NCBI GenBank assembly: GCA_030744875.1
Contig: JASLPR010000088.1
Span: forward strand, 1-48,955
DNA from: Chloroflexota bacterium
GTDB taxonomy: Bacteria > Chloroflexota > UBA11872 > VXNJ01
Direction of reading: 5' to 3'
DNA length: 48,955 nucleotides
Shown: positions 270 to 11,996 of the stretch, piece after piece
Layout of the letters: every line of letters begins with the position of its first letter
Numbering within the stretch: position 1 is the first letter of the stretch
Translations under genes and position numbers: made by a program
The notes under the pieces: generated by a model
The model's database searches: none
The model's input: the letters and a program-made list of their open reading frames with translations, nothing else
Told to the model about the DNA's origin: nothing

Positions 270-1001
270 ATGAAGCTGGCCGCCTCGCTCGACGAACTGG
301 AAGCCCGGCTGGGCTACGTGTTCAACGACCGTGCCTTGCTCGAACGGGCGCTGGTCCATCGCTCGCTGGTCAACGAGTCCGAGCTCGAAGCCACCGACTC
401 CAACGAGCGGCTCGAGTTCCTGGGTGATGCCGCGCTTGAGTTGGCGGCCACCACCCACCTCTACAACCGCCATCCCGACCGCCTCGAAGGCGAGTTGTCC
501 GCCGCCCGCGCCGCGCTGGTGAATCTGCGCGCCCTGGCTCGCCGCGCGGAAGCCGTCGGCCTGGCCGATTTCGTCAGCACCGGCGCCGGCGACATCCTGC
601 GCGGCGGCCGTTCCCGCGGCACCGTGATCGGTCGCAGCTACGAGGCCGTCATCGGGGCCGTCTTCGTCGACGGCGGCCTGGCCGCCGTCGAGAGGTTCCT
701 TGAGCCCTGGTTCGAGGAGTTCTACGCAAGCTACGAGTTCAGCCCCGAGGCCCTGGACAGCAAATCGCGCCTGCAGCACCTCACCCAGGGCGCCGGCGGG
801 CCGTCGCCCGCCTACCACCTGGTCGCGTCCTCCGGTCCCGACCACTCCCGCCTGTTTCGGGTTGAGGTGGCCGCCGGCGGCGAGACCCTGGCGGTCGGCC
901 AGGGCACCAGCGTGCAGCGCGCCGAATTGGACGCCGCCGGGCGCGCCCTGGCGGCACTCGACCGCGACCGCCCCGACAACCGCGAACCGGGGTCCGGGTA
1001 G
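270..1001 (+). CDS. rnc: ribonuclease III
   Basis: Double-strand-specific endoribonuclease for rRNA and mRNA processing; 243 aa, normal for the family. The RNase III signature is [10 protein letters not shown] (residues 45-54), giving the metal ligands E46, E49 and D53, with E73 in the LEGELS segment. The second metal motif, usually A-D-x-x-E-A-L-I-G-A, reads [10 protein letters not shown] (121-130). The Glu is kept (E125), but the Asp position (E. coli D114) is Arg122. A double-stranded-RNA-binding domain fills roughly residues 163-231, though its usual Lys-rich end is replaced by VQRAEL. The ATG at 270 gives the expected N-terminus; the ribosome binding site is weak. The stop abuts the smc start codon, so the two genes are probably co-transcribed. 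The rnc-smc order is common in bacteria. Confidence 0.93.
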
Positions 1002-4000
1002 ATGTACCTGCGCGAACTCGAAATACATGGCTTCAAGAGTTTTGCCCGCAAGACGAAGCTCGAATTCGGCACCGGCGTCACCGCCGTCATCGGCCCCAAC
1101 GGCACCGGCAAGAGCAACGTCGCCGACGCCATCCGCTGGGCCATGGGCGAACAGAGCATGCGCTCGCTGCGTGGCAGCCGTACCGAGGACGTGATCTTCG
1201 GCGGCAGCAGCGGGCGGTCCCGATCCGGCATGGCTCAGGTCACCGTGACGTTCGAGAACTCCGACAACTGGCTACCGATCGACTTCGACAAAGTCGGCAT
1301 CAGCCGCCGCGCCTACCGGTCCGGCGAAAACGAATATCGCCTCAACGGTTCTACAGTCCGGCTCAAGGACATCCAGGACCTGCTGCGCTCCGGCGGCATC
1401 GCCCTCGGCGGCAGCATGGTCATCGGCCAGGGCGAAGTCGACGCCGCGCTCAGCCTGCGGCCCGAGCACCGTCGCCTGCTGCTGGAAGAGGGCGCCGGCG
1501 TCTCGCGCTACTACGCCCGCCGCGACGACGCTCGCCGCCGTCTCGACCGCACCGAGCGTAATCTCCAGCGGCTCGACGATCTGCATTCCGAGCTCGGCCC
1601 GCGACTGGAGTTGCTGCGCGAACAGGCCGAAGTCGCGGAGCGCAGCGGCGAGCTGGCCGGCGATCTGCAGGACAAGTCGCGCGCCCTGCTCGCCCACCGG
1701 CTCGCCTTGGCCATCGGCGCGCGCGAAAACTCTGCCACCGCCCACGCCGAGGCGAAGGCCCGGCTTGAGGAATTCGAAGCTCGCGACGGCCCCGAAGAAT
1801 CGACCGTCGCCGACGAGCAGGTCGCGGCCGCTGCCGCCACCACCGCCGCCGCTGTCGCCGCCCACGAGGAGTTGCGCGCCCGCCTTAACGAGCTCACCGC
1901 CGCGGCCCGCTTGGCCGAGCAGCGCGCCGAATTCGAAGATCGCGCTCTCGCCGACCTGGAAACCCGGCTTGCTGCCGCCGTCGAAGCCGGTGCCGGAGCC
2001 GTCGCGGTTGTCGAGCAGTTACAGACCGACGTCGCCGCGCTCGAAACTGCCTGCCGGGAACTCGAAGACGAAGTCTCGGCGGCGGGGCCGGCAGGGGCGT
2101 CGGAGGAGAGCATCGACGAACTGGAAGCCGCGGTCGCCGAGGCCCGCAAGGTCGCTACCGACCTAGCCGGCGAGATCACCCGCATCCAGGAATCGCAGCG
2201 CTCCCTGACCGCCCGGCAGGCCGAGAACGACAACGCCGCCGCCAACGCCGCCGAAGATGTTCAGACTTCGGCCGCGGCCGTCGTCACCCAGCAAGCGGAG
2301 GCGGTCGAAGCCGAGCGCCGCGTACACGACGCCGAGGCCCGTTCGGTCGAGGCGCGCACCGTCCGCGACCGCGCCGCCGCCCGGGTCCGCGCGATGCGGT
2401 CGGAACTTGAACGCGCCGGCGCCGACACCATCGAGCAGCGCGCCGCCCTCGAAGCTATGCGCGCCGAAAGCCAGGCCGTGGCCACCGCCGGCGCCGAGTC
2501 GATGGCCACCCGCCAGGGCATCCTGGCGCTCCTCGAGAACGCTGATCAGCTGCGCCTGCGTGGGCTCCTGCGGACCGGCCTGCTCACCATCCCGCCCGAA
2601 TTCGCCGCCGCCGTCGACGCCGCCCTCGGCGATCTCTTCCAGGATGTCGTCATCGATCGCATCGAGGACCTCGGCACGGCCATCACCTTTCTGCGCGACC
2701 AGCCCGGCACCCGCGTCCGCTTCCGCCCGGCCGCCGGCATCACCGGCCCGTCCGGGTGGCGCTGGCCGTTTGGCGGCGGCCCCCCCGACGATGACGGCAT
2801 CGTCGGCACTCTCGACGGCCTGATCCAGGTAAGGCCCGAGTACGACGACGCGCTCACACCGCTGCTGCAGGCCATCGTGGTCGTCGACGACCTCGACACC
2901 GCCATCGGCCTGCGCACCGGCGATCGCGACATCGGCTGCTATCAACTGGTCACCCGCGACGGCGAGCTGGTCGACCATGACGGCTCCGTCCTGGTCGGCC
3001 GCCGCGACGAAGAAGACAGCACCGATTTCGCGGCCCGCGCCGCCGAGCTCGAATCCGCCATCGCCACCGCCGAGCCCCGGCTAGCCACCGCCGTCGAGAC
3101 CGAGCAAATCGCCCGCGAGGCTCTCGAAAGCGCCGTCACCGAAGAGGAACGCGCCGGCGAGGACCTGGAAGCCGCCATGCTCTTTGACGCTGGTTCGCGT
3201 TCCGGGCATCACAGTGCCCAGGAAGAACTCAACCTCGCCAACCGCCAGCTCGCCTTCTGGGAGGCCCTGGTCGTGCGCACCGCCGAAACTGCCGAAGAGA
3301 TCACCAATCGCCAGGAGTTGGCCCGGCACGGCCTGGCCGAGTCTCAGCCCCGCATCGCACCCTGCCGTGAGGCCGTCGAAATCGCCGAAGCCCGGCTCGC
3401 CGCCGCCCGGCAACTCGCCAGCGAATCCGGCATTGCCGAGCTTCGTTCGTGCCTGCTGATCGAGCGTGAGCGCTTGGAGGGCACCCGCGTCCGCCTGCAG
3501 AACCAGCAATCCCTGGCCGAGGCCGCCGTCAGCGATCAGGCCCGCGCCGAAGAAGACATCACCGCCACCCGGGCACGGGTCGAGGCCGCCCGCGCCGAAG
3601 CCGAAACTTTCCAAACCGAATCCGCCGAAATCGGTGAGCAACTCCCAGCCCTCGCCGAGGACGTCGAAACCCGCCGCCGCGAAGCCTCCGAACTGGAGAT
3701 GGCGCGCGGTCAGGCCGACCTCCTGCGGCGCAGCCGCGAGGTCGAACGCGGCGAGATCGACAACGCCGTCCGCGCCGCCGCCGACCGCACCGAATTTGCC
3801 GACCAGCGCATTGCCGACATCCGCGACCGCATCCGCCAGGAACTCGGCGTTGAAGACCTCGAACCGCGGCGCTACTCGCGACCGGTCGGCGAGCTCGAAG
3901 CCGAGATCGAACGTCTCCAGCGCCTGGTCTACGACATCGGCCCGGTGAACCCGATGGCCCCGCAGCAGTTCGAAGACGAGAGCAACCAGTTCAAGACCCT

Positions 4001-4580
4001 CGGCGAAGAAATCGTTGACATGGAGCAGACGGTCGAAGAACTGCGCAAGCTCACCCGCGAGCTGGAGACCGCCGTCCAGGACGAATTCATGCGCACCTTC
4101 GACCTCATCCGCAGCGAGTTCCGCAAGTACTTCCGGATGCTGTTCGGCGGCGGCGACGCCAGCCTCGAGCTAACCGATCCTGAAGACCCGGCCACCTCCG
4201 GCCTTGAGATCACCGCCAAGCTGCCCGGCAAACGCGCCCAGCGGCTCGAGGCGCTTTCCGGCGGCGAGCGTTCGCTGGTCTCGGTGGCCCTGCTCTTCGC
4301 CATGTTCAGTGCCCGTCCCGGGCCCATCTGCGTCCTCGACGAGGTCGACGCCGCGCTCGACGAAGCCAACACCGAGCGATTTCGCCACATCCTGCACGAC
4401 TTCGCCCAGCGCACTCAGTTCATCGTCATCACCCACAACCCCGGTACCATTGAAGAGGCCGACTCCATCCTCGGCGTATCGATGTCTGCCAACGGGGTGT
4501 CCGAGCTCGTCTCGGTCCGCATGAATGGCGTCGACGGCAACGGCGCCGCCGCCCCGGTCGAGATCCCCAGCGTCGGCTAG
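1002..4580 (+). CDS. smc: chromosome segregation protein SMC
   Basis: Structural-maintenance-of-chromosomes ATPase that compacts and segregates DNA; 1192 aa, the usual size. The N-terminal head has a Walker A GPNGTGKS (31-38). Long Ala/Glu/Arg-rich coiled coils follow (about 170-500 and 660-1000). Between them lies a hinge (about 512-645), including [15 protein letters not shown]. The C-terminal head has the signature LSGGERSL (1085-1092) and Walker [14 protein letters not shown], with D1113 and E1114. The N-terminus [15 protein letters not shown] is typical and fixes the ATG, which directly follows the rnc stop codon. The kleisin partners ScpA and ScpB are not in the window. Confidence 0.96.
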
Positions 4581-4586
4581 ATAACC

Positions 4587-6461
4587 ATGGCAACCACCGT
4601 CGATCCGCTCGCCACCTTGGCCGATCGCTACGACTCCCACGGATTCCGCTTCAGCCTCGGCCCAGTCGAGTTCCACGCCTGCCGCCGCTGCGAGGACGAC
4701 TCCCCCGTGCTGGCCGCCGTCCTCAACCTCACCGAGCTTGAGCCGCCGGTGGTCGCCGAGGTCACCGCCGCCGCCGAGCGCTGGCCGCGCGCCGCGTTCG
4801 CCGACTGGCGGCCCATCGATATCCACCCGGTTTCCGAGAGCCTCTACGTCGTCGTCGCCGACGATCCCGGTGGCGGCCGCCCGACCGATGACGGCGAGGC
4901 CATCCGGCCCCACACGGCCGCCCGGGCGGTCAATCTTGGCGTTCAGGCGGCCCGCGCGGCCGAGTTCCTGCTGGCGGCCGGCATCGCCGTCCCGGCCATC
5001 CCGCCCGGCCTGCTGCGCGAGACCCTCGACGAAGGCCTGGTGATCCTGCACGCCTGGCTGCTGCCGGTGCTCCCCTGGCTGCTCCGGCTCGGCGCCTCGG
5101 CCGCCGCCCCGGCGGCGATTGCGATACCGCCCGAAACCGATACCGGCGGCCCGCCCGCCCCGCGCACGGCCGTGTTCGCGGTCGCCACCCTGGTCCGCCG
5201 GCTCCTCGAAGGCTTGCCTCCGGCGCGCCGGGCGGGCGTTGCCCGGGCCGCCATCGCGCCCCGACTCGAGCGGATCCTGGCCCGCGCCACCGCCGACTCC
5301 CTCTCGCGCCGCCCGCCCGGCCTGCGCGAATTCGCCCGTGAACTCACCGACGCTGGCCCCGCCAACCGCCGCAACTTCGTGCCCGCCGCGCGCCGTCCCG
5401 TGCAGCGGCGGCGCCGCCGTTTGCTCACCCGTCCCCGCCGTCTGCTGCCCGACCGGCCGGTCACCGAGGTCGGCCCGCCGCGGGTGAAACCCTGGATGAT
5501 CGCCCTCGTCACCGCCGCCGGCATCATCGCCTTCCTGGCCCTGTTGCCGCGCATCGGTAATCCCCTCGAGCCGGTCGAGGACATCCTCACCGAGTTCCGC
5601 TCCGCCTTCACCGACCCCGAGGAGCCCGACGCCGACAGCGCCTCGGCGGACCGCCTGCTGCTGGTCCCTGACTTCACCGGCCGGCAGCAATCCGAGGTGC
5701 AGTTGGAGGCCGCCCGCCTGGACCTCGAACTCACAGTCGCGGAAGAGATCGCGCCCGACATCGCGCCCGGCTCGGTCATTCGCCAGGAGCCGGCGTCCGG
5801 CGCCCGGGTGCGCGGCGGCGCAGCCCTGACCATCGTCGTCGCCCGCGGCGAAGCCGAAGCGTTTCTCATCGCCGTGCAGAACCGCACCGCTCTCGACGCC
5901 CGCGAGGCGCTGACCGAGCTGGGCTTCGTGGTCGTCGAAGTGCCCGGCTACGACGAGAACCGTCCCGCCGGCATCGTCCTCAGCCAGTCGCCGGAGCCTG
6001 GGCTGGTGCTGCCCAAGGGCACCCAGGTCGTCATCGAAGTCAGCCGCGGCGCCCGCCGCCTGGCGATTCCCTCCGTCGTCGGCCTGCCTGAAGAAGACGC
6101 CTCCCGCATCATCACCGACCTGGGCCTCAACGTCGCCGCCGAACCGGTCACCGACGCCCCCGTCATCCGCCAGCCCGGTGAAGTCGTGGCCCAGCAGCCC
6201 GGCGCCGGTTCGTCGGTCGAACCCGGCGCAACGGTCGTCCTGCGCATCTACGCGCCCGACGCCATCACGGTCCCGGATCTCACCGGGCTCGACCTGGGCC
6301 AGGCCCTGCAGGCCATCGCCGCCGCCGGGCTCGCCCCCGGAATCGTCCAGCAGACCCCCGGCGAAGCGGATCAACCCCTCGTCGTCATCGCCCAGTCGCC
6401 GCCGTCCGGCTCGCCGGCGGCCCGCAACACCGTGATCGACTTCCAGATCGGCCCCCGGTAG
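4587..6461 (+). CDS. membrane protein with degenerate protein-kinase-like N-terminus and four PASTA domains
   Basis: The 624-aa protein has three parts. Residues 1 to about 260 look like a decayed Hanks-type Ser/Thr kinase: an N-terminal RYD…F.LG-like stretch, an 'L..AGIAVPAIPPGLL' segment where kinases have the H-R-D loop, and a C-terminal LERILARATADSLSRRP that resembles the end of PknB kinase domains. The VAIK lysine, HRD and DFG motifs are absent. An Arg-rich segment precedes one membrane helix (303-322). Four PASTA repeats follow, at about 355-420, 425-487, 491-554 and 560-624. PASTA repeats bind uncrosslinked peptidoglycan or muropeptides in the PknB/PrkC and PBP2x families. The architecture therefore suggests a cell-wall sensor without kinase activity. 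PASTA assignment is firm; pseudokinase homology is inferred from weak pattern similarity. Confidence 0.75.
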   Translation: MATTVDPLATLADRYDSHGFRFSLGPVEFHACRRCEDDSPVLAAVLNLTELEPPVVAEVTAAAERWPRAAFADWRPIDIHPVSESLYVVVADDPGGGRPTDDGEAIRPHTAARAVNLGVQAARAAEFLLAAGIAVPAIPPGLLRETLDEGLVILHAWLLPVLPWLLRLGASAAAPAAIAIPPETDTGGPPAPRTAVFAVATLVRRLLEGLPPARRAGVARAAIAPRLERILARATADSLSRRPPGLREFARELTDAGPANRRNFVPAARRPVQRRRRRLLTRPRRLLPDRPVTEVGPPRVKPWMIALVTAAGIIAFLALLPRIGNPLEPVEDILTEFRSAFTDPEEPDADSASADRLLLVPDFTGRQQSEVQLEAARLDLELTVAEEIAPDIAPGSVIRQEPASGARVRGGAALTIVVARGEAEAFLIAVQNRTALDAREALTELGFVVVEVPGYDENRPAGIVLSQSPEPGLVLPKGTQVVIEVSRGARRLAIPSVVGLPEEDASRIITDLGLNVAAEPVTDAPVIRQPGEVVAQQPGAGSSVEPGATVVLRIYAPDAITVPDLTGLDLGQALQAIAAAGLAPGIVQQTPGEADQPLVVIAQSPPSGSPAARNTVIDFQIGPR

Positions 6462-6690
6462 GTGCGGCCACTAGCCGGGTGTCCCCCTCCCGTCCGGCAA
6501 ATCTCCGTCGCCATCCGGCCAATAACGTGTGACAATCCCCCGCGGTTCTATTCTTCAGACTCTCACCCGGGCCCCGCCGATTCCCCAACCGGCTCGCGGC
6601 CCGGCCATCGCAAGGAAGGCGCCCAATAGCCACGATCTCGCCATCGTCCCGGAAGATTCCCCCTCCGCACCGGTCCCGGCCTGTCTAATC
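6462..6690 (+). other. spacer before M23 gene
   Basis: A frame continuous with the M23 gene extends upstream to a GTG at 6529, but its codons look non-coding and the signal peptide begins at 6691. A GTGACA at 6529-6534 and a TATTCT at 6549-6554 resemble -35 and -10 boxes, but the 14-bp gap is too short to trust. The spacer is strongly C-rich on the + strand. Confidence 0.35.
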
Positions 6691-8247
6691 ATGCCCGGAA
6701 CCCGCCTCCGCTCCCTGCTCGGCGCACTGGTGATCGCCGGCCTGCTGGCCGGCTTCATGCCGCCGGGCGCGGCCCACGCGCGCATCTGCCTGCCGTCGCC
6801 CAACTTCGCCGTCGCCGGCGGCTGGTTCTTTTCCGAAACCGGCGGCGACACCGACCTCGGCTACGTCGTCCGCGATGACGCGCAGGCCCGTTTCTGGGAG
6901 GCCTTCCAGGCCGAAGGCGGCGTTGCCGCGCTCGGCTACCCGGTCTCAGGCCGTTTTCAATTCCGCGGCTTCACCACCCAGGCCTTCCAGAAGGCCATCC
7001 TGCAATGGGACCCGGCCCGCGACGGTATCAACTACTTCAATACCCTCGACGAACTGCAGGCCCTGGGGTTCGACGAGTTCTTATTCAGTTTCCGCCAGAT
7101 ACCGCTCCACGCCGCCCTGCCGGCCGACGCCGGACTCGACCCGCGCATCCCGGCCGAATTTGAGCTGATCGAGCAGAACCACCTGGCGTTGCTGGACCCC
7201 TACCCGCTGTTCCGTGAAGTCTTCGCCGGCAGCGACTGGCGCGATCTCTACGGGCTCCCGATCTCCTTCCAGGACTTCGGTCCCTTCCAGACGGTGCGGA
7301 CGCAACGGCAGGTCCTGCAGGTGTTCACTGTCGCCGGGCTCGGCGGTGCGGTCGGCACGGTATCGGTCGCCAACTCCGGCGACATCGCCAAAGAGGCCGG
7401 CCTGGTCCCAGCCGCGGCCGCCACGCCCATCGCCGCGCCGATCGATCTCGGCGGCGCCCCCGAATCCGTCGCGCTCGACGCCCTCGACGTTGCGCCCGGC
7501 GGGCAGGTCCTGATCCGCGTCACCGGCGTCAGCGGCGCCCTGACCGTCGCCTACGCCGGGCTCACCATTCCCGGTTTCTGCGTCGCCGGCGCCGATACCC
7601 TGCTCATTCCGGTCGACCGCACCACCCCACCCGGCCCGGTACCGGTGGCCATCGCCGTAGCCGGCGAACCGCCCGGTCGCGTGCTCAATACTGGCTTCAC
7701 GGTCCTGCCGTCCGGATTTGACTCGACCGTCATCCAGTTGCCCGACAACCTCGTATCGACGCTCGACCCGGCCACCATCGCCGCCGAAAACGCCACCCTC
7801 GCCGCCGTCTTCGCCAACGTTTCGGCCCGCCGAATCTGGCAAAGGCGCTTCCTCTGGCCGGTGGTCGGGGCGGTTTCGGCCACGTTCGGCCAGGATCGGA
7901 CCTACCAGCCCGGCTCGGTCGTTGGCTTCCACAGCGGCCTCGACATCGCCGCCCCGACCGGCGCGGCGGTCAACGCCGCCCAGAACGGTGTCGTCGTCTT
8001 CGCGGAGTTCCTGCCCATCCACGGCAATACGGTCATCCTCGATCACGGCTGGGGCATCTTCAGTGCCTATTCGCATCTCTTGGCCATCGAGGTCGCGACC
8101 GGCGGGACGGTCTTCGCCGGGCAGACCATCGGCCTAGTCGGAAACACCGGCCGCTCGGTCGGCCCCCACCTGCACTTCGAAATCCGCGTCCACAACGTGC
8201 CGTTGGATCCGCTGCCCTGGATCGACACCGACGTCCTCGGCGGCTGA
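6691..8247 (+). CDS. secreted M23 (LytM-type) peptidase with Chloroflexota-type N-terminal modules
   Basis: A 518-aa exported protein, probably a murein endopeptidase. A signal peptide ends near PPGAAHA (about residue 30), which is why I place the start at ATG 6691 rather than at an upstream in-frame GTG. The mature N-terminal half has modules of the type 'FWEAF..EGGVAALGYPVS', 'QAFQKAILQWDP' and 'DLYGLPISFQDFG…RTQRQVLQVF', familiar from Chloroflexota surface proteins. An Ig-like middle domain follows. The C-terminal M23 domain keeps all zinc ligands and catalytic residues: H414 and D418 in HSGLD, and H493 and H495 in HLHFE. It is therefore predicted active, unlike many EnvC-type activators. 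It lies between a PASTA protein and mutS2, so it is likely to work on the cell wall with its upstream neighbour. Confidence 0.85.
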   Translation: MPGTRLRSLLGALVIAGLLAGFMPPGAAHARICLPSPNFAVAGGWFFSETGGDTDLGYVVRDDAQARFWEAFQAEGGVAALGYPVSGRFQFRGFTTQAFQKAILQWDPARDGINYFNTLDELQALGFDEFLFSFRQIPLHAALPADAGLDPRIPAEFELIEQNHLALLDPYPLFREVFAGSDWRDLYGLPISFQDFGPFQTVRTQRQVLQVFTVAGLGGAVGTVSVANSGDIAKEAGLVPAAAATPIAAPIDLGGAPESVALDALDVAPGGQVLIRVTGVSGALTVAYAGLTIPGFCVAGADTLLIPVDRTTPPGPVPVAIAVAGEPPGRVLNTGFTVLPSGFDSTVIQLPDNLVSTLDPATIAAENATLAAVFANVSARRIWQRRFLWPVVGAVSATFGQDRTYQPGSVVGFHSGLDIAAPTGAAVNAAQNGVVVFAEFLPIHGNTVILDHGWGIFSAYSHLLAIEVATGGTVFAGQTIGLVGNTGRSVGPHLHFEIRVHNVPLDPLPWIDTDVLGG

Positions 8248-8289
8248 TTCACGGGCCGCACGGCGGTTTTGACGGATATCATTTCCGGA

Positions 8290-10647
8290 ATGTCCACCTC
8301 CGCCCGCACACTGGCCGCCCTCGAGCTCCCGGCGATCCTGGCAAGGGTCGCCGACCACGCCGCCTTCTCGCTCAGTCGCGAGCAGGTCCGCCGGCTGGTT
8401 CCGGCCACCGACCCGGACACCGTCCGCTGGCTGCTCAATGAAGTCAGCGAGGCCTGCGACGCCCTGGAGATCAATCCCAGCCTGACGGTCGGCGCCGTCC
8501 GTGACATCCGCGCCCGGCTGGAGGCCGCCCGGATCGAATCGCGCCTCGACGCCGCCGATCTGCTGACCATCGCCGGCACCATTCGTGGCGCGGCCGGTTT
8601 GCGCACCGGGCTGGCCAACGTCAGCGAAGTCGCCCCTGGGCTGGCCGAGTTCGCGCGCCAGATCGACCCGCTCCCCCACCTGGCCGCCGCCATCTCCCGC
8701 TGCATCGCCGACGACGGCGAGATCCTCGACTCGGCCTCACCGGCGCTCGCTCGCGTACGGTCGGCGGGCCGCAAAGCGCAGCAGCGCCTCCACACCGGCA
8801 TCGAGCGCGTGCTGCAGGCCGAGCGCCGTCGCGACCACATCCAGGAGGCCATCTACACCGAGCGCTCGGGACGGCTCGTGATCCCGATCAAGAACGAATA
8901 CCGCCGCGAGTTTCCGGGCGTGATCCACGACATTTCGGCCACCGGACTCACGGTGTTCATGGAGCCCCTCGAGGTCGTCGAATTGAACAACGAGTGGCAC
9001 CGGCTGCAACTGGAAGAGCGCAACGAGATCGATCGCGTCCTTGCCGAACTTACCGCCAACGTCGCCGAGTCGGTCGAAATCCTCGAACTCAACCTGTCGG
9101 TGGCCGCCGAGATTGACGTCGCGCTGGCCCGCGCCCGCTACGCCCACAGCACCGACGCGACGGCCCCCGAAGTCGCCGCCGACCGTTCGTTTACGTTTCT
9201 GCAGGCCCGCCATCCGCTGCTCGGCGCCGAGGCCGTGCCCCTCGACATCGCCCTCGGCCCGGCGCACGGTTTCAACGCGGTGCTCATCACCGGGCCCAAC
9301 ACCGGCGGTAAGACCGTGGCCCTCAAGACGGTCGGCTTGCTGCACCTGATGGCCGCCTGCGGGTTGCACATACCCGCTGCCGACGGCTCCCGGGTCGCCG
9401 TCTACGAGCAGCTATTCGCTGACATCGGCGACGAACAGAGCATCGAGCAGAGCCTCAGCACGTTCTCCTCGCACATGAGCAACCTGGTCGAGATGGTCGA
9501 CCGGGCGGGGGAAGGTGACCTGGTCCTGGCCGACGAAATCGGCGCCGGCACCGATCCCGCCGAGGGCGCCGCGCTGGCCCGGGCTATCGTCGAGACGCTG
9601 CTCGACAGCGGCGGGCAGATGGTCGCCACTACCCACATCGCCGAGCTAAAACACTTCGCCTACCAGCATGCCAACATCGAGAACGCCAGCGTCGAGTTCG
9701 ACCTCGAGACCCTCTCCCCCACCTACGTGCTGCGGATGGGCCTGGCAGGGGCCAGCAACGCCATCGACATCGCCGCTCGGCTGGGCCTGAGCGCCGGCGT
9801 TATCGAGCGTGCCCGCGAACTCATCGGCGGCGAGCACGAAGCCACCGAGCAACTCTTGGAGCGCCTGCGCCACGATACCGACGCCGCCGAAGAAGATCGC
9901 CGCCAGGCCGCCGCCGAACTGGAAGCCGCCCGCGAGGCCCGCGCCGGCGCCACTGAATCGATTGAGGCCGCCGAGGACCGCGAAGCCGAGCACTGGCGTG
10001 AAACCCGCCGCGAAGCCCGCACGCTCCTGCGCCAGATGCAGTCCCTGGCCCGGGAGACCGAGCGGGCCGCCCGCGACGAAGATCGAGACCATCTCCGCGG
10101 TGCCGTCCGCGCCGGCCGTGAATTGCAGGAGAGCCTGGACGACAGCGGCTACGAGCCCGGCGATCAGGCCGACCCGGTGCGCGACCTGCCGGTCGTGCGC
10201 CCCGGCGACCGCGTCCGCCTGCGCGGCCTACGCGGTTCCGGCGAAGTCATCTCGGTCGACTCCGCCGGGCACGACATCGAGATCATATCCGGCGCGATGC
10301 GCATGCGCGTCGCCCCCGAGGAGATCGAGAGCGTCGAATCCAACCCCACCCCGCCGCGTCCCCCCGACTCAGCCGCCCGGCCGTTGCCGATCCCCAGTTC
10401 GGGGTACCTGGACATCGACCTGCACGGCCTGCGCGCCGAGGGCGCCGCCGAAGCGGTCGAAGAAGGCATCGACCGCGCAATGCTCGAGGGCCGCCAGTTC
10501 GTACATCTCATCCACGGCCGTGGCACCGGGGCGCTGCGGGCGGCGGTGCGCCGTCATCTCCAGGGGCATCCGCTGGTGAAGAAGTTCGCCGACGCGCCGC
10601 CGCACGAAGGTGGTTCCGGCACTACGGTCGTCGATCTACGCGGCTAA
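8290..10647 (+). CDS. mutS2: MutS2 family ATPase with Smr endonuclease domain
   Basis: MutS2 acts in recombination control in some bacteria and in rescue of collided ribosomes in Bacillus. The 785-aa protein has the MutS core and clamp region, then a Walker A GPNTGGKT (335-342) and Walker B LVLADEIGAGTD (D415, E416). A charged coiled coil follows (about 510-650), and then a KOW-like segment around VRPGDRVRLRGL. The C-terminal Smr domain shows DLHG (710-713) and HGRGTG (742-747), so the nuclease or RNA-cleaving motifs are intact. It lacks the MutS mismatch-recognition domain. I chose ATG 8290 (MSTSARTLAALEL) over the in-frame TTG at 8269, because MutS2 proteins start close to this Leu-rich helix. 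A TATCAT at 8277-8282 could be a -10 box but has no matching -35. Confidence 0.93.
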   Translation: MSTSARTLAALELPAILARVADHAAFSLSREQVRRLVPATDPDTVRWLLNEVSEACDALEINPSLTVGAVRDIRARLEAARIESRLDAADLLTIAGTIRGAAGLRTGLANVSEVAPGLAEFARQIDPLPHLAAAISRCIADDGEILDSASPALARVRSAGRKAQQRLHTGIERVLQAERRRDHIQEAIYTERSGRLVIPIKNEYRREFPGVIHDISATGLTVFMEPLEVVELNNEWHRLQLEERNEIDRVLAELTANVAESVEILELNLSVAAEIDVALARARYAHSTDATAPEVAADRSFTFLQARHPLLGAEAVPLDIALGPAHGFNAVLITGPNTGGKTVALKTVGLLHLMAACGLHIPAADGSRVAVYEQLFADIGDEQSIEQSLSTFSSHMSNLVEMVDRAGEGDLVLADEIGAGTDPAEGAALARAIVETLLDSGGQMVATTHIAELKHFAYQHANIENASVEFDLETLSPTYVLRMGLAGASNAIDIAARLGLSAGVIERARELIGGEHEATEQLLERLRHDTDAAEEDRRQAAAELEAAREARAGATESIEAAEDREAEHWRETRREARTLLRQMQSLARETERAARDEDRDHLRGAVRAGRELQESLDDSGYEPGDQADPVRDLPVVRPGDRVRLRGLRGSGEVISVDSAGHDIEIISGAMRMRVAPEEIESVESNPTPPRPPDSAARPLPIPSSGYLDIDLHGLRAEGAAEAVEEGIDRAMLEGRQFVHLIHGRGTGALRAAVRRHLQGHPLVKKFADAPPHEGGSGTTVVDLRG

Positions 10648-10739
10648 GCCGCCCTGCGCTCGCCGCGCCGCCGCTCCGCACCCGCCCCCACTCCACCGCC
10701 CCACGCCCGCCACTGCTCCAGACCCTCCCCGCCCCGGTG

Positions 10740-10916
10740 CTACTGGCGAAACGCCCCGTACTTGATGTCGGCGTCGGACGAACCGGGCAACGACGAGCGC
10801 GCCCAGCCCGAAACTTGGGTCCACCGCTTGGAGATAAACACGCCGATGCCAAAGCCAATGCCAAAGGCGGCTCCGGCGGCCAGTCCGACCGCAATTAGTG
10901 CTTGCTTAGCCTGCAA
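10740..10916 (-). CDS. small glycine-zipper membrane protein, unknown function
   Basis: A 58-aa reading frame starts at TTG 10916 (- strand), behind GGAG/AAGG at 10930-10923, and stops at TAG 10742-10740. It begins MQAKQALIAVG and has one predicted membrane helix (about 5-28) in which Gly and Ala recur every three or four residues (AAGAAFGIGFGIGVF). A basic SKRW follows, then a short polar tail ending YGAFRQ. Codon third positions fit coding DNA. It begins 23 nt after the rsfS stop codon, so it is probably the last gene of a nadD-rsfS-small-protein operon. I do not recognise a family. A glycine zipper suggests helix packing or oligomerisation in the membrane. Confidence 0.6.
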   Translation of the reverse strand: MQAKQALIAVGLAAGAAFGIGFGIGVFISKRWTQVSGWARSSLPGSSDADIKYGAFRQ

Positions 10917-10939
10917 CTCTCGCCTTCTCCTCGGTCGCC

Positions 10940-11332
10940 CTACGGCATATGTACCAGCGCCGGCGCATCCGCCCAGAATTCCTCCAGCGCGTAGTAGGTT
11001 CGCTTCTCCTCGACAAACACGTGCACCAGCACGTCGCCGAAATCCACCACCATCCAACCATCCGACGGCGACCCTTCGGGCCGCCCGCGACGATCAGCAT
11101 CCTCGCGCATCGCGTTCACCACCTCGTCCACCAGCGCCCGCACGTGGACGGTGCTGGTGGCGGTGCAGATCACGAAAAAATCAGCAATCGTGGTCAGTTC
11201 ACGAATGTCCAGGAGCTTGATATCGGCCGCGTTACGTTCGCTCGCCCTAACGACGATCTGGTGAGCCAACTCATTCGATTCCAGGCTGATGGCACGCTCC
11301 CGGCAAGAACCGCCCTTACATAACTCCGACAA
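10940..11332 (-). CDS. rsfS: ribosomal silencing factor RsfS
   Basis: RsfS binds uL14 and prevents subunit joining under nutrient limitation. The core DIKLLDIRELTTIADFFVICTAT and the later DGWMVVDFGDVLVHVF and YALEEFWADAP segments are diagnostic. The only in-frame ATG/GTG/TTG upstream of the conserved ESNELAHQIV helix is TTG 11332, giving 130 aa. A CTG at 11284 is an alternative. A GGAG followed by an out-of-frame ATG-TAA (11321-11316) lies inside the N-terminal stretch, so the true start is uncertain. The gene follows nadD by 28 nt, the usual nadD-rsfS pairing. Confidence 0.9.
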   Translation of the reverse strand: MSELCKGGSCRERAISLESNELAHQIVVRASERNAADIKLLDIRELTTIADFFVICTATSTVHVRALVDEVVNAMREDADRRGRPEGSPSDGWMVVDFGDVLVHVFVEEKRTYYALEEFWADAPALVHMP

Positions 11333-11341
11333 AGTCTAGCA
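11333..11341 (-). promoter_or_regulatory. extended -10-like element at rsfS 5' end
   Basis: On the - strand the sequence reads TGCTAGACT: a TG, one base, then TAGACT (11338-11333). It lies in the 28-nt nadD-rsfS gap and ends right at the proposed TTG start, so a transcript from it would begin inside that reading frame. It resembles the elements before ftsE and the S41 gene. No good -35 box is present. Confidence 0.25.
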
Positions 11342-11360
11342 TCGAAATGAAGCGCCGAGG

Positions 11361-11996
11361 TCAGCCTTCGGGAATTCGGTACAGGTTCAAAGCCTCGATG
11401 TGACGGCCCACTGCCGGGTGCACCAGGTCGGCGTAGGGCCGCCCCGCCGCGATCCGCGCCCGGATATCCGTCGAAGAGATCTCCGGTCCGGCCCGCCGTC
11501 GCTTTTGTAGCTGGCCGGCATCCACGCCCAATTGCGCCGCTAGCGCCGCCAGGTCGCGCGGCGCCGCCCCGGGGCGCTCCACCACCACCATCCGCACCTC
11601 GTTCAGCAGCTCCTCGATAGCCCGCCACTCCTCCAGTTCCTCCGCCAGGTCCGCGCCGACGATGATGGTCAGCTCCCGCTCCGGATAGCGATTCCGCACC
11701 TCGGCGATCGTATCCCGCGTGTACGAGGGCGGCGGGCGTTCCAGTTCCAGCCCGGACACCTCGAAACGCGGGTTGTAGGCGGTCGCCAGTTCGCACATCC
11801 GCAGGCGCTCTTCAGCCGCCACCGCCGGCGCGCCGCGCAGTGGCGAGCGGCGGGCCGGGACAAACAGGACGCGCGCCAGCGCATAGGCCTCCGCCACGTC
11901 GGCCGCGATTGCCAGGTGGCCCCGGTGAATCGGGTCGAACGACCCGCCCAGGATTCCGATGCCGCCCGCCGCCGCATCTCTGGTTCGCGCATTCAT
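11361..11996 (-). CDS. nadD: nicotinate-nucleotide adenylyltransferase NadD
   Basis: NadD converts nicotinate mononucleotide and ATP to deamido-NAD in NAD biosynthesis. The 211-aa protein has the nucleotidyltransferase signature GGSFDPIHRGHL (17-28, with H24 and H27 of the HxGH-type motif) and the C-terminal ISSTDIR (173-179) that contacts ATP. The ATG at 11996 gives a 15-residue lead before the first strand, slightly long but usual. It is the first gene of the - strand operon with rsfS and the small membrane protein, and is divergent from rho. Its codons favour G at third positions (CGG, GCG), unlike the C-ending + strand genes. Confidence 0.95.
   Translation of the reverse strand: MNARTRDAAAGGIGILGGSFDPIHRGHLAIAADVAEAYALARVLFVPARRSPLRGAPAVAAEERLRMCELATAYNPRFEVSGLELERPPPSYTRDTIAEVRNRYPERELTIIVGADLAEELEEWRAIEELLNEVRMVVVERPGAAPRDLAALAAQLGVDAGQLQKRRRAGPEISSTDIRARIAAGRPYADLVHPAVGRHIEALNLYRIPEG

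Follow-up and report, generated by a model that had tools for sequence, protein, structure and literature searches.

Analyses of the window, the whole stretch of 48,955 nucleotides of Chloroflexota DNA, revealed a gene encoding a membrane receptor with four PASTA repeats and a cytoplasmic domain that is devoid of kinase catalytic motifs. Profile, structure and synteny comparisons showed that, at the sequence level, the ancestor of this domain was the kinase domain of the PASTA kinase linked to rnc-smc in the same class. The loss of the catalytic residues, the retention of the kinase shape and of the wall-binding part, and the fact that no other such kinase was found together suggest that the sensor does a job needing no phosphorylation. 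We infer that the protein probably functions as a wall-binding membrane scaffold, a non-phosphorylating pseudokinase descended from a PASTA Ser/Thr kinase receptor of the PknB/StkP type. Genomes are labelled G000-G060; f1 is the family of the window, f1 and f2 together form its order, and f1-f5 its class. The features of the window are located as follows:

4587..6461 (+), PASTA pseudokinase receptor gene, 624 aa, ATG start
4605..5366 (+), degenerate protein-kinase domain, about residues 7-260 (hhalign, AlphaFold models, Foldseek/VIA, alignment)
4707..4718 (+), position of VAVK, reading VLAA, lysine absent (alignment)
4989..5012 (+), position of HRDLKPQN, reading VPAIPPGL (alignment)
5049..5060 (+), position of DFG, reading HA (aligned -HA), followed by W157-L158, invariant in four f1 sequences (alignment)
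5127..5135 (+), APE motif retained as PPE, NPQ in G002 (alignment)
5367..5492 (+), Arg-rich juxtamembrane linker (sequence)
5493..5549 (+), one transmembrane helix, residues 303-321 (hydropathy)
5664..6452 (+), four PASTA repeats at 5664-5843, 5877-6044, 6066-6248 and 6264-6452 (Pfam)
270..1001 (+), rnc (RNase III), heading the conserved gene order
1002..4580 (+), smc
6529..8247 (+), M23 peptidase gene, kept downstream in family f1
8269..10647 (+), mutS2

The source genome (G000; 2.30 Mb, 89% complete) contains no PASTA match beyond the four repeats of this gene. In the 624-aa protein, Pfam recognised PASTA in four stretches (E 2.9e-45) and no other family, and relaxing the threshold to E<=1 still brought up no kinase family. 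The NCBIfam model PknB_PASTA_kin (NF033483) matched the PASTA part alone, with 125.4 bits, below its cut-off of 450, and phmmer against the PDB matched the protein solely from residue 358 on, to PASTA segments of kinases such as PknB and StkP. One clear hydrophobic stretch (303-321) lies between the cytoplasmic domain and the PASTA repeats, in agreement with an earlier note on this DNA, which had described one membrane helix and four PASTA repeats in a gene located between smc and an M23 peptidase. That location was also confirmed, as the gene begins 7 bases after the end of smc (4580) and the M23 peptidase ORF (M23 domain E 1.1e-29) begins 68 bases 3' of it; HxxxD and HxH, which we take to be the motifs of such peptidases, are visible in the M23 protein. 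The N-terminal half of this peptidase, of ~440 aa, is kept in the f1 relatives and had no Pfam match at E<=1. A longer ORF of 734 aa on the opposite strand (4170-6374, -) was rejected as a real gene and regarded as a by-product of GC-rich DNA, since the PASTA matches and a GC3 of 0.90 are found in the + frame.

The kinase layout of the N-terminal domain was invisible to single-sequence family searches and became apparent with a profile of the four f1 members that keep the domain (window, G002, G003 and G004). Hhalign comparison of this profile with a kinase set drawn from this locus and elsewhere gave a probability of 96.1, an E of 3.7e-9 and a score of 68.1 over 245 columns. The first kinase profile (14 rows) held L128, an ORF without kinase motifs that is probably a PASTA penicillin-binding protein, and the partial row L123; the comparison repeated without L128 and without f5 gave a probability of 97.0, an E of 1.1e-10 and a score of 78.5. 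As controls, 100 column shuffles gave scores of at most 22.3, and reversing the alignment gave 12.8. Single f1 lineages matched the kinases more weakly, with hhalign probabilities of 86.0 for the window, 91.9 for G003 and G004 together and 4.6 for G002. When 41 class genomes and 400 phylum genomes were searched with the profile, strong matches were confined to the four f1 genomes, and all eight further loci matched outside the family were Pkinase by Pfam, among them the f5 gene at the equivalent position (E 9.2e-4). In addition, hmmsearch of the profile against the PDB returned 22 matches at E<=1, all of them protein kinases, with a best E of only 0.0094.

Structure prediction from the four f1 sequences alone yielded a poor AlphaFold model (pLDDT 45.3, pTM 0.46) in which strands and helices follow one another as in a kinase N-lobe. 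Foldseek analysis of this model, whose alignment was free of kinases, placed the pseudokinase domain of Rv3910 (MviN) first (E 1.5e-4) and kinases next, and VIA-align superposed residues ~4-92 on kinase N-lobes with Z up to 8.4, middling by the scale of the tool, the VIA rows spanning mainly residues 5-124. Because the model is poor (pLDDT 45), these fold matches are supportive only. A second model from 16 rows that included kinases, and was thereby biased by its alignment, reached a pLDDT of 81.5 and a pTM of 0.82, matched Mycobacterium tuberculosis (Mtb) PknB with Z 19.9 and an rmsd of 3.7 over 228 residues, and had a best Foldseek E of 7.8e-10. Rv3910 topped the Foldseek matches for the low-confidence f1-only model, not for the better 16-row model, and the assignment of the C-lobe depends on hhalign and the biased 16-row model. 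The kinase ancestry of the N-terminus is shown by the profile-profile comparison, the out-of-family matches, the AlphaFold and Foldseek results and the finding that the positional orthologues are PASTA kinases. That the domain has no relation to kinases at all is thus hardly credible: the missing Pfam match, the low confidence of the f1-only model and the weak G002 lineage would fit such a view, which is nevertheless contradicted by profile, structure and synteny evidence alike and was rejected on the hhalign, Foldseek, VIA, Pfam and PDB profile matches. The PknB-type layout read in the N-terminus by the earlier note was therefore borne out, and its idea of a kinase-derived, catalytically empty PASTA receptor is supported by the structure prediction and fold search, which predicted a bilobal kinase fold and retrieved kinases.

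The catalytic landmarks were located in the 16-row alignment. The VAVK position reads VLAA in the window, YEAA in both G003 and G004 and ARLA in G002, while HRDLKPQN is replaced by VPAIPPGL (window), ISVLPSAS (G003), ISVLPATS (G004) and VVAIDPIQ (G002), and DFG is gone in all four. The catalytic Lys, the HRD Asp and the DFG Asp are consequently absent from every f1 sequence keeping the domain, consistent with the absence of the VAIK lysine, HRD and DFG noted earlier for the window; three of the four still have the APE motif, in the form PPE. Both f5 genes retain VAVK and DFG, carry HGD in place of HRD, and have lost ~15 residues where helix G is expected, a deletion common to f5 and f1, and the f3 genes contained canonical kinase motifs in 7/7 complete cases, counted on seven of nine genomes, G028 being left out for its split frame and G036 because it meets a contig edge. 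Missing motifs do not prove inactivity, and the kinase fold might have kept or gained a nucleotide-dependent activity through non-canonical residues. Enzymes of this sort are found in other families, YegI and SelO among them, and the constraint on the N-terminal domain described below would be in line with one; however, the four f1 sequences share no Lys, Asp or Asn at the catalytic landmarks, helix G is absent, and neither PP2C_2 nor FHA was matched in the five f1 genomes, which makes an unconventional enzyme quite improbable.

Genomic context analyses revealed that rnc-smc-PASTA is an old gene order, present already around active kinases. The class sample comprised 41 genomes and 40 PASTA loci including the window (G035, 69% complete, gave no match), and three of nine loci examined outside the class had no PASTA match. 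The gene smc lies directly upstream of the PASTA gene in 33 of the 40 class loci (f1 4/5, f2 19/19, f4 5/5, f5 2/2, f3 3/9). Along this locus, the PASTA protein carries a canonical kinase in f3, a kinase with HGD and without helix G in f5 and a motif-free domain in f1, and consists of the transmembrane helix and PASTA alone in f2, f4 and G001. The cytoplasmic domain was absent in 19/19 f2 proteins (375-391 aa, G007 having a longer called start), in 5/5 fetched f4 proteins (299-313 aa) and in G001 of f1 (387 aa), and Pfam detected PASTA alone in one f2 example, one f4 example and G001. The full-length open frame was kept in four of five f1 genomes, belonging to three genera. A tree of rnc and smc, built on the 29 loci where rnc is accompanied by a long smc (G001 not among them) and rooted by choice on f3 (one row, G040), gave the topology (f3,(f5,(f4,(f1,f2)))) with a support of 1.00 at the family nodes. 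Because f1 retains the dead domain, we infer that its loss occurred separately in f4, f2 and G001, that is, by at least three deletions. A strongly Arg-rich tail or linker before the transmembrane helix (5367-5492 in the window, the N-terminal tails in f2) was kept after loss of the kinase domain; lipid or nucleic acid may be its ligand, or it may mirror a GC-rich codon bias.

The rest of the Hanks-kinase pathway was surveyed in the same families. Pkinase matches occurred in 0/5 f1, 7/19 f2, 3/6 f4, 2/2 f5 and 9/9 f3 genomes, FHA matches in 0/5, 0/19, 0/6, 2/2 and 9/9, and PP2C_2 matches in 0/5, 0/19, 3/6, 0/2 and 8/9, respectively, and thus none of Pkinase, PP2C and FHA was detected in the five f1 genomes. 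These are 84-96% complete; single absences may be gaps, which is unlikely for five together. FHA was detected in none of the 30 f1, f2 and f4 genomes and PP2C_2 in none of the 24 order genomes, which looks like a wholesale loss of the pathway. Transpeptidase (PBP) matches were found in 41/41 class genomes, with two or three per f1 genome, and peptidoglycan is therefore probably made in f1. It may be proposed, tentatively, that the lineage dismantled the kinase, the phosphatase and the FHA reader of Hanks-type signalling and kept the PASTA receptor as a non-phosphorylating peptidoglycan-sensing scaffold, with the pseudokinase signalling by protein contact. If true, this would be a natural separation-of-function experiment, and the ancient, selected role of PASTA receptors would be kinase-independent.

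Selection on the domain was estimated from one close pair, G003 and G004. The Nei-Gojobori omega was 0.258 for the N-terminal domain (bootstrap 95% 0.156-0.41), 0.093 for PASTA, 0.107 for the transmembrane region, 0.257 for smc and 0.079 for M23, and the identity between the window and its relatives was 24-26% in the N-terminal domain, 46-54% in the transmembrane region and 36-43% in PASTA. By these omega and identity values, the dead domain is under purifying selection in this one species pair, though it is constrained less than the ectodomain. The scaffold reading is weakened by the dispensability of the domain, which may be a slowly decaying relic because it is gone in G001 and in the f2 and fetched f4 proteins, and by its evolution, which is faster than that of PASTA. 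On this evidence, together with the at least three separate deletions (tree and G001) and the absence of a detectable FHA partner, such as reads the MviN pseudokinase, from the five f1 genomes, the transmembrane-PASTA part would work alone, as in f2, f4 and G001, and the dead kinase domain would be functionless and heading for deletion. This appears somewhat unlikely in view of the full-length frame kept in three genera, the omega bounded at 0.41 and similar to that of smc in the same pair, the invariant W157-L158 and the APE glutamate kept in three of four sequences.

Under the preferred reading of a wall-binding scaffold, the PASTA ectodomain would still bind peptidoglycan fragments or lipid II, and this binding would direct the protein to places where the wall grows or the cell divides. 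There it might recruit or control wall enzymes, namely PBPs and, in f1, perhaps also the neighbouring M23 endopeptidase, via direct contacts of the ectodomain, transmembrane helix and linker. The pseudokinase domain would be a cytoplasmic docking or dimerisation module, since discarded by most relatives, and the output would be other than phosphorylation. According to the accessible text of PMC12077195, StkP does more than act as a kinase: its ectodomain positions PBP2x, and the hydrolase LytB is directed by StkP. It is therefore plausible that a PASTA receptor could have a role that needs no kinase.

The protein shares with the PASTA kinases PknB, PrkC, StkP and Stk1 the order kinase-linker-TM-PASTA, a PASTA sequence match to Mtb PknB and the predicted fold of the N-terminal domain, but lacks the catalytic motifs and helix G, and no PP2C, FHA or other Hanks kinase was detected in its genome. 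MviN (Rv3910 of M. tuberculosis, ActPs3 family), the top Foldseek match of the f1-only model, is likewise a wall-system membrane protein with a motif-free kinase domain. According to the accessible text of PMC12599244, the membrane protein that bears this pseudokinase domain is required for peptidoglycan synthesis; PknB phosphorylates the domain, and FhaA reads it. Among working domains of this kind, that of MviN comes nearest. Unlike MviN, the window protein bears PASTA, with 0 FHA and 0 Pkinase matches in 5/5 f1 genomes. The GLW pseudokinases of Proteobacteria, as described in the accessible text, also have bulky hydrophobic residues replacing the kinase motifs and a transmembrane helix C-terminal to the domain, but belong to another phylum, have another motif and are described there with no mention of PASTA. 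The accessible text of the bacterial pseudokinase review (PMC12599244) covers ActPs1-3, GLW, CP1, DYD and DLHK, and names PASTA once, in the reference list. No published PASTA pseudokinase was found in the accessible literature joining a pseudokinase and a PASTA domain, subscription papers being outside its scope, and none of the titles on PASTA in Chloroflexi/Chloroflexota concerned PASTA pseudokinases.

The kinase-less proteins of f2, f4 and G001 share gene position, transmembrane helix and PASTA repeats with the window protein, but have nothing cytoplasmic past a short tail. TM-PASTA proteins without a kinase exist in other phyla. PASTA kinases have been studied almost exclusively as enzymes, and here a single syntenic gene can be traced from an active-looking kinase through a partly degraded one and a pseudokinase to a protein without cytoplasmic domain, with the ectodomain kept throughout. 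This series suggests that selection maintains a function independent of phosphorylation, and it offers natural variants for testing.

The earlier note had also proposed that the receptor could couple muropeptide binding to wall hydrolysis or chromosome compaction, and had asked whether the order smc-PASTA-M23 is conserved. A same-strand M23 gene was present downstream in 5/5 f1 genomes, with an aminotransferase-like gene between it and the PASTA gene in G003 and an equal spacing in G004. With the M23 protein of the window as query and flanks of unequal length among loci, no match was obtained in the fetched flanks of 19 f2, 5 f4 and 2 f5 loci, and in f3 an M23 match lay downstream on the opposite strand in 5/9 loci. 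Of this order, smc-PASTA held in 33/40 class loci and a same-strand M23 gene following it was limited to f1, so that a coupling to M23 would be family-specific and is weakly indicated. Regarding chromosome compaction, no Smc over the cut-off and no ScpA was found genome-wide in G001, G024, G026, G028, G032, G036 and G039, which gave sub-cut-off fragments or nothing; G001 (locus L034) and these six f3 genomes still carry the PASTA gene. In G001 and the five f3 loci reaching far enough (that of G036 is cut off by the contig edge), the PASTA gene is preceded by rnc, with no smc between. Because smc is not needed for the gene to be kept, and the smc-PASTA order predates the loss of the kinase, a link to chromosome compaction is unlikely and was rejected as a mechanism. 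At one f2 locus (L035, G005), a convergent CtpA-type protease and FtsE/FtsX-like ABC genes were seen by eye 3' of the kinase-less PASTA gene (8138-11841, -).
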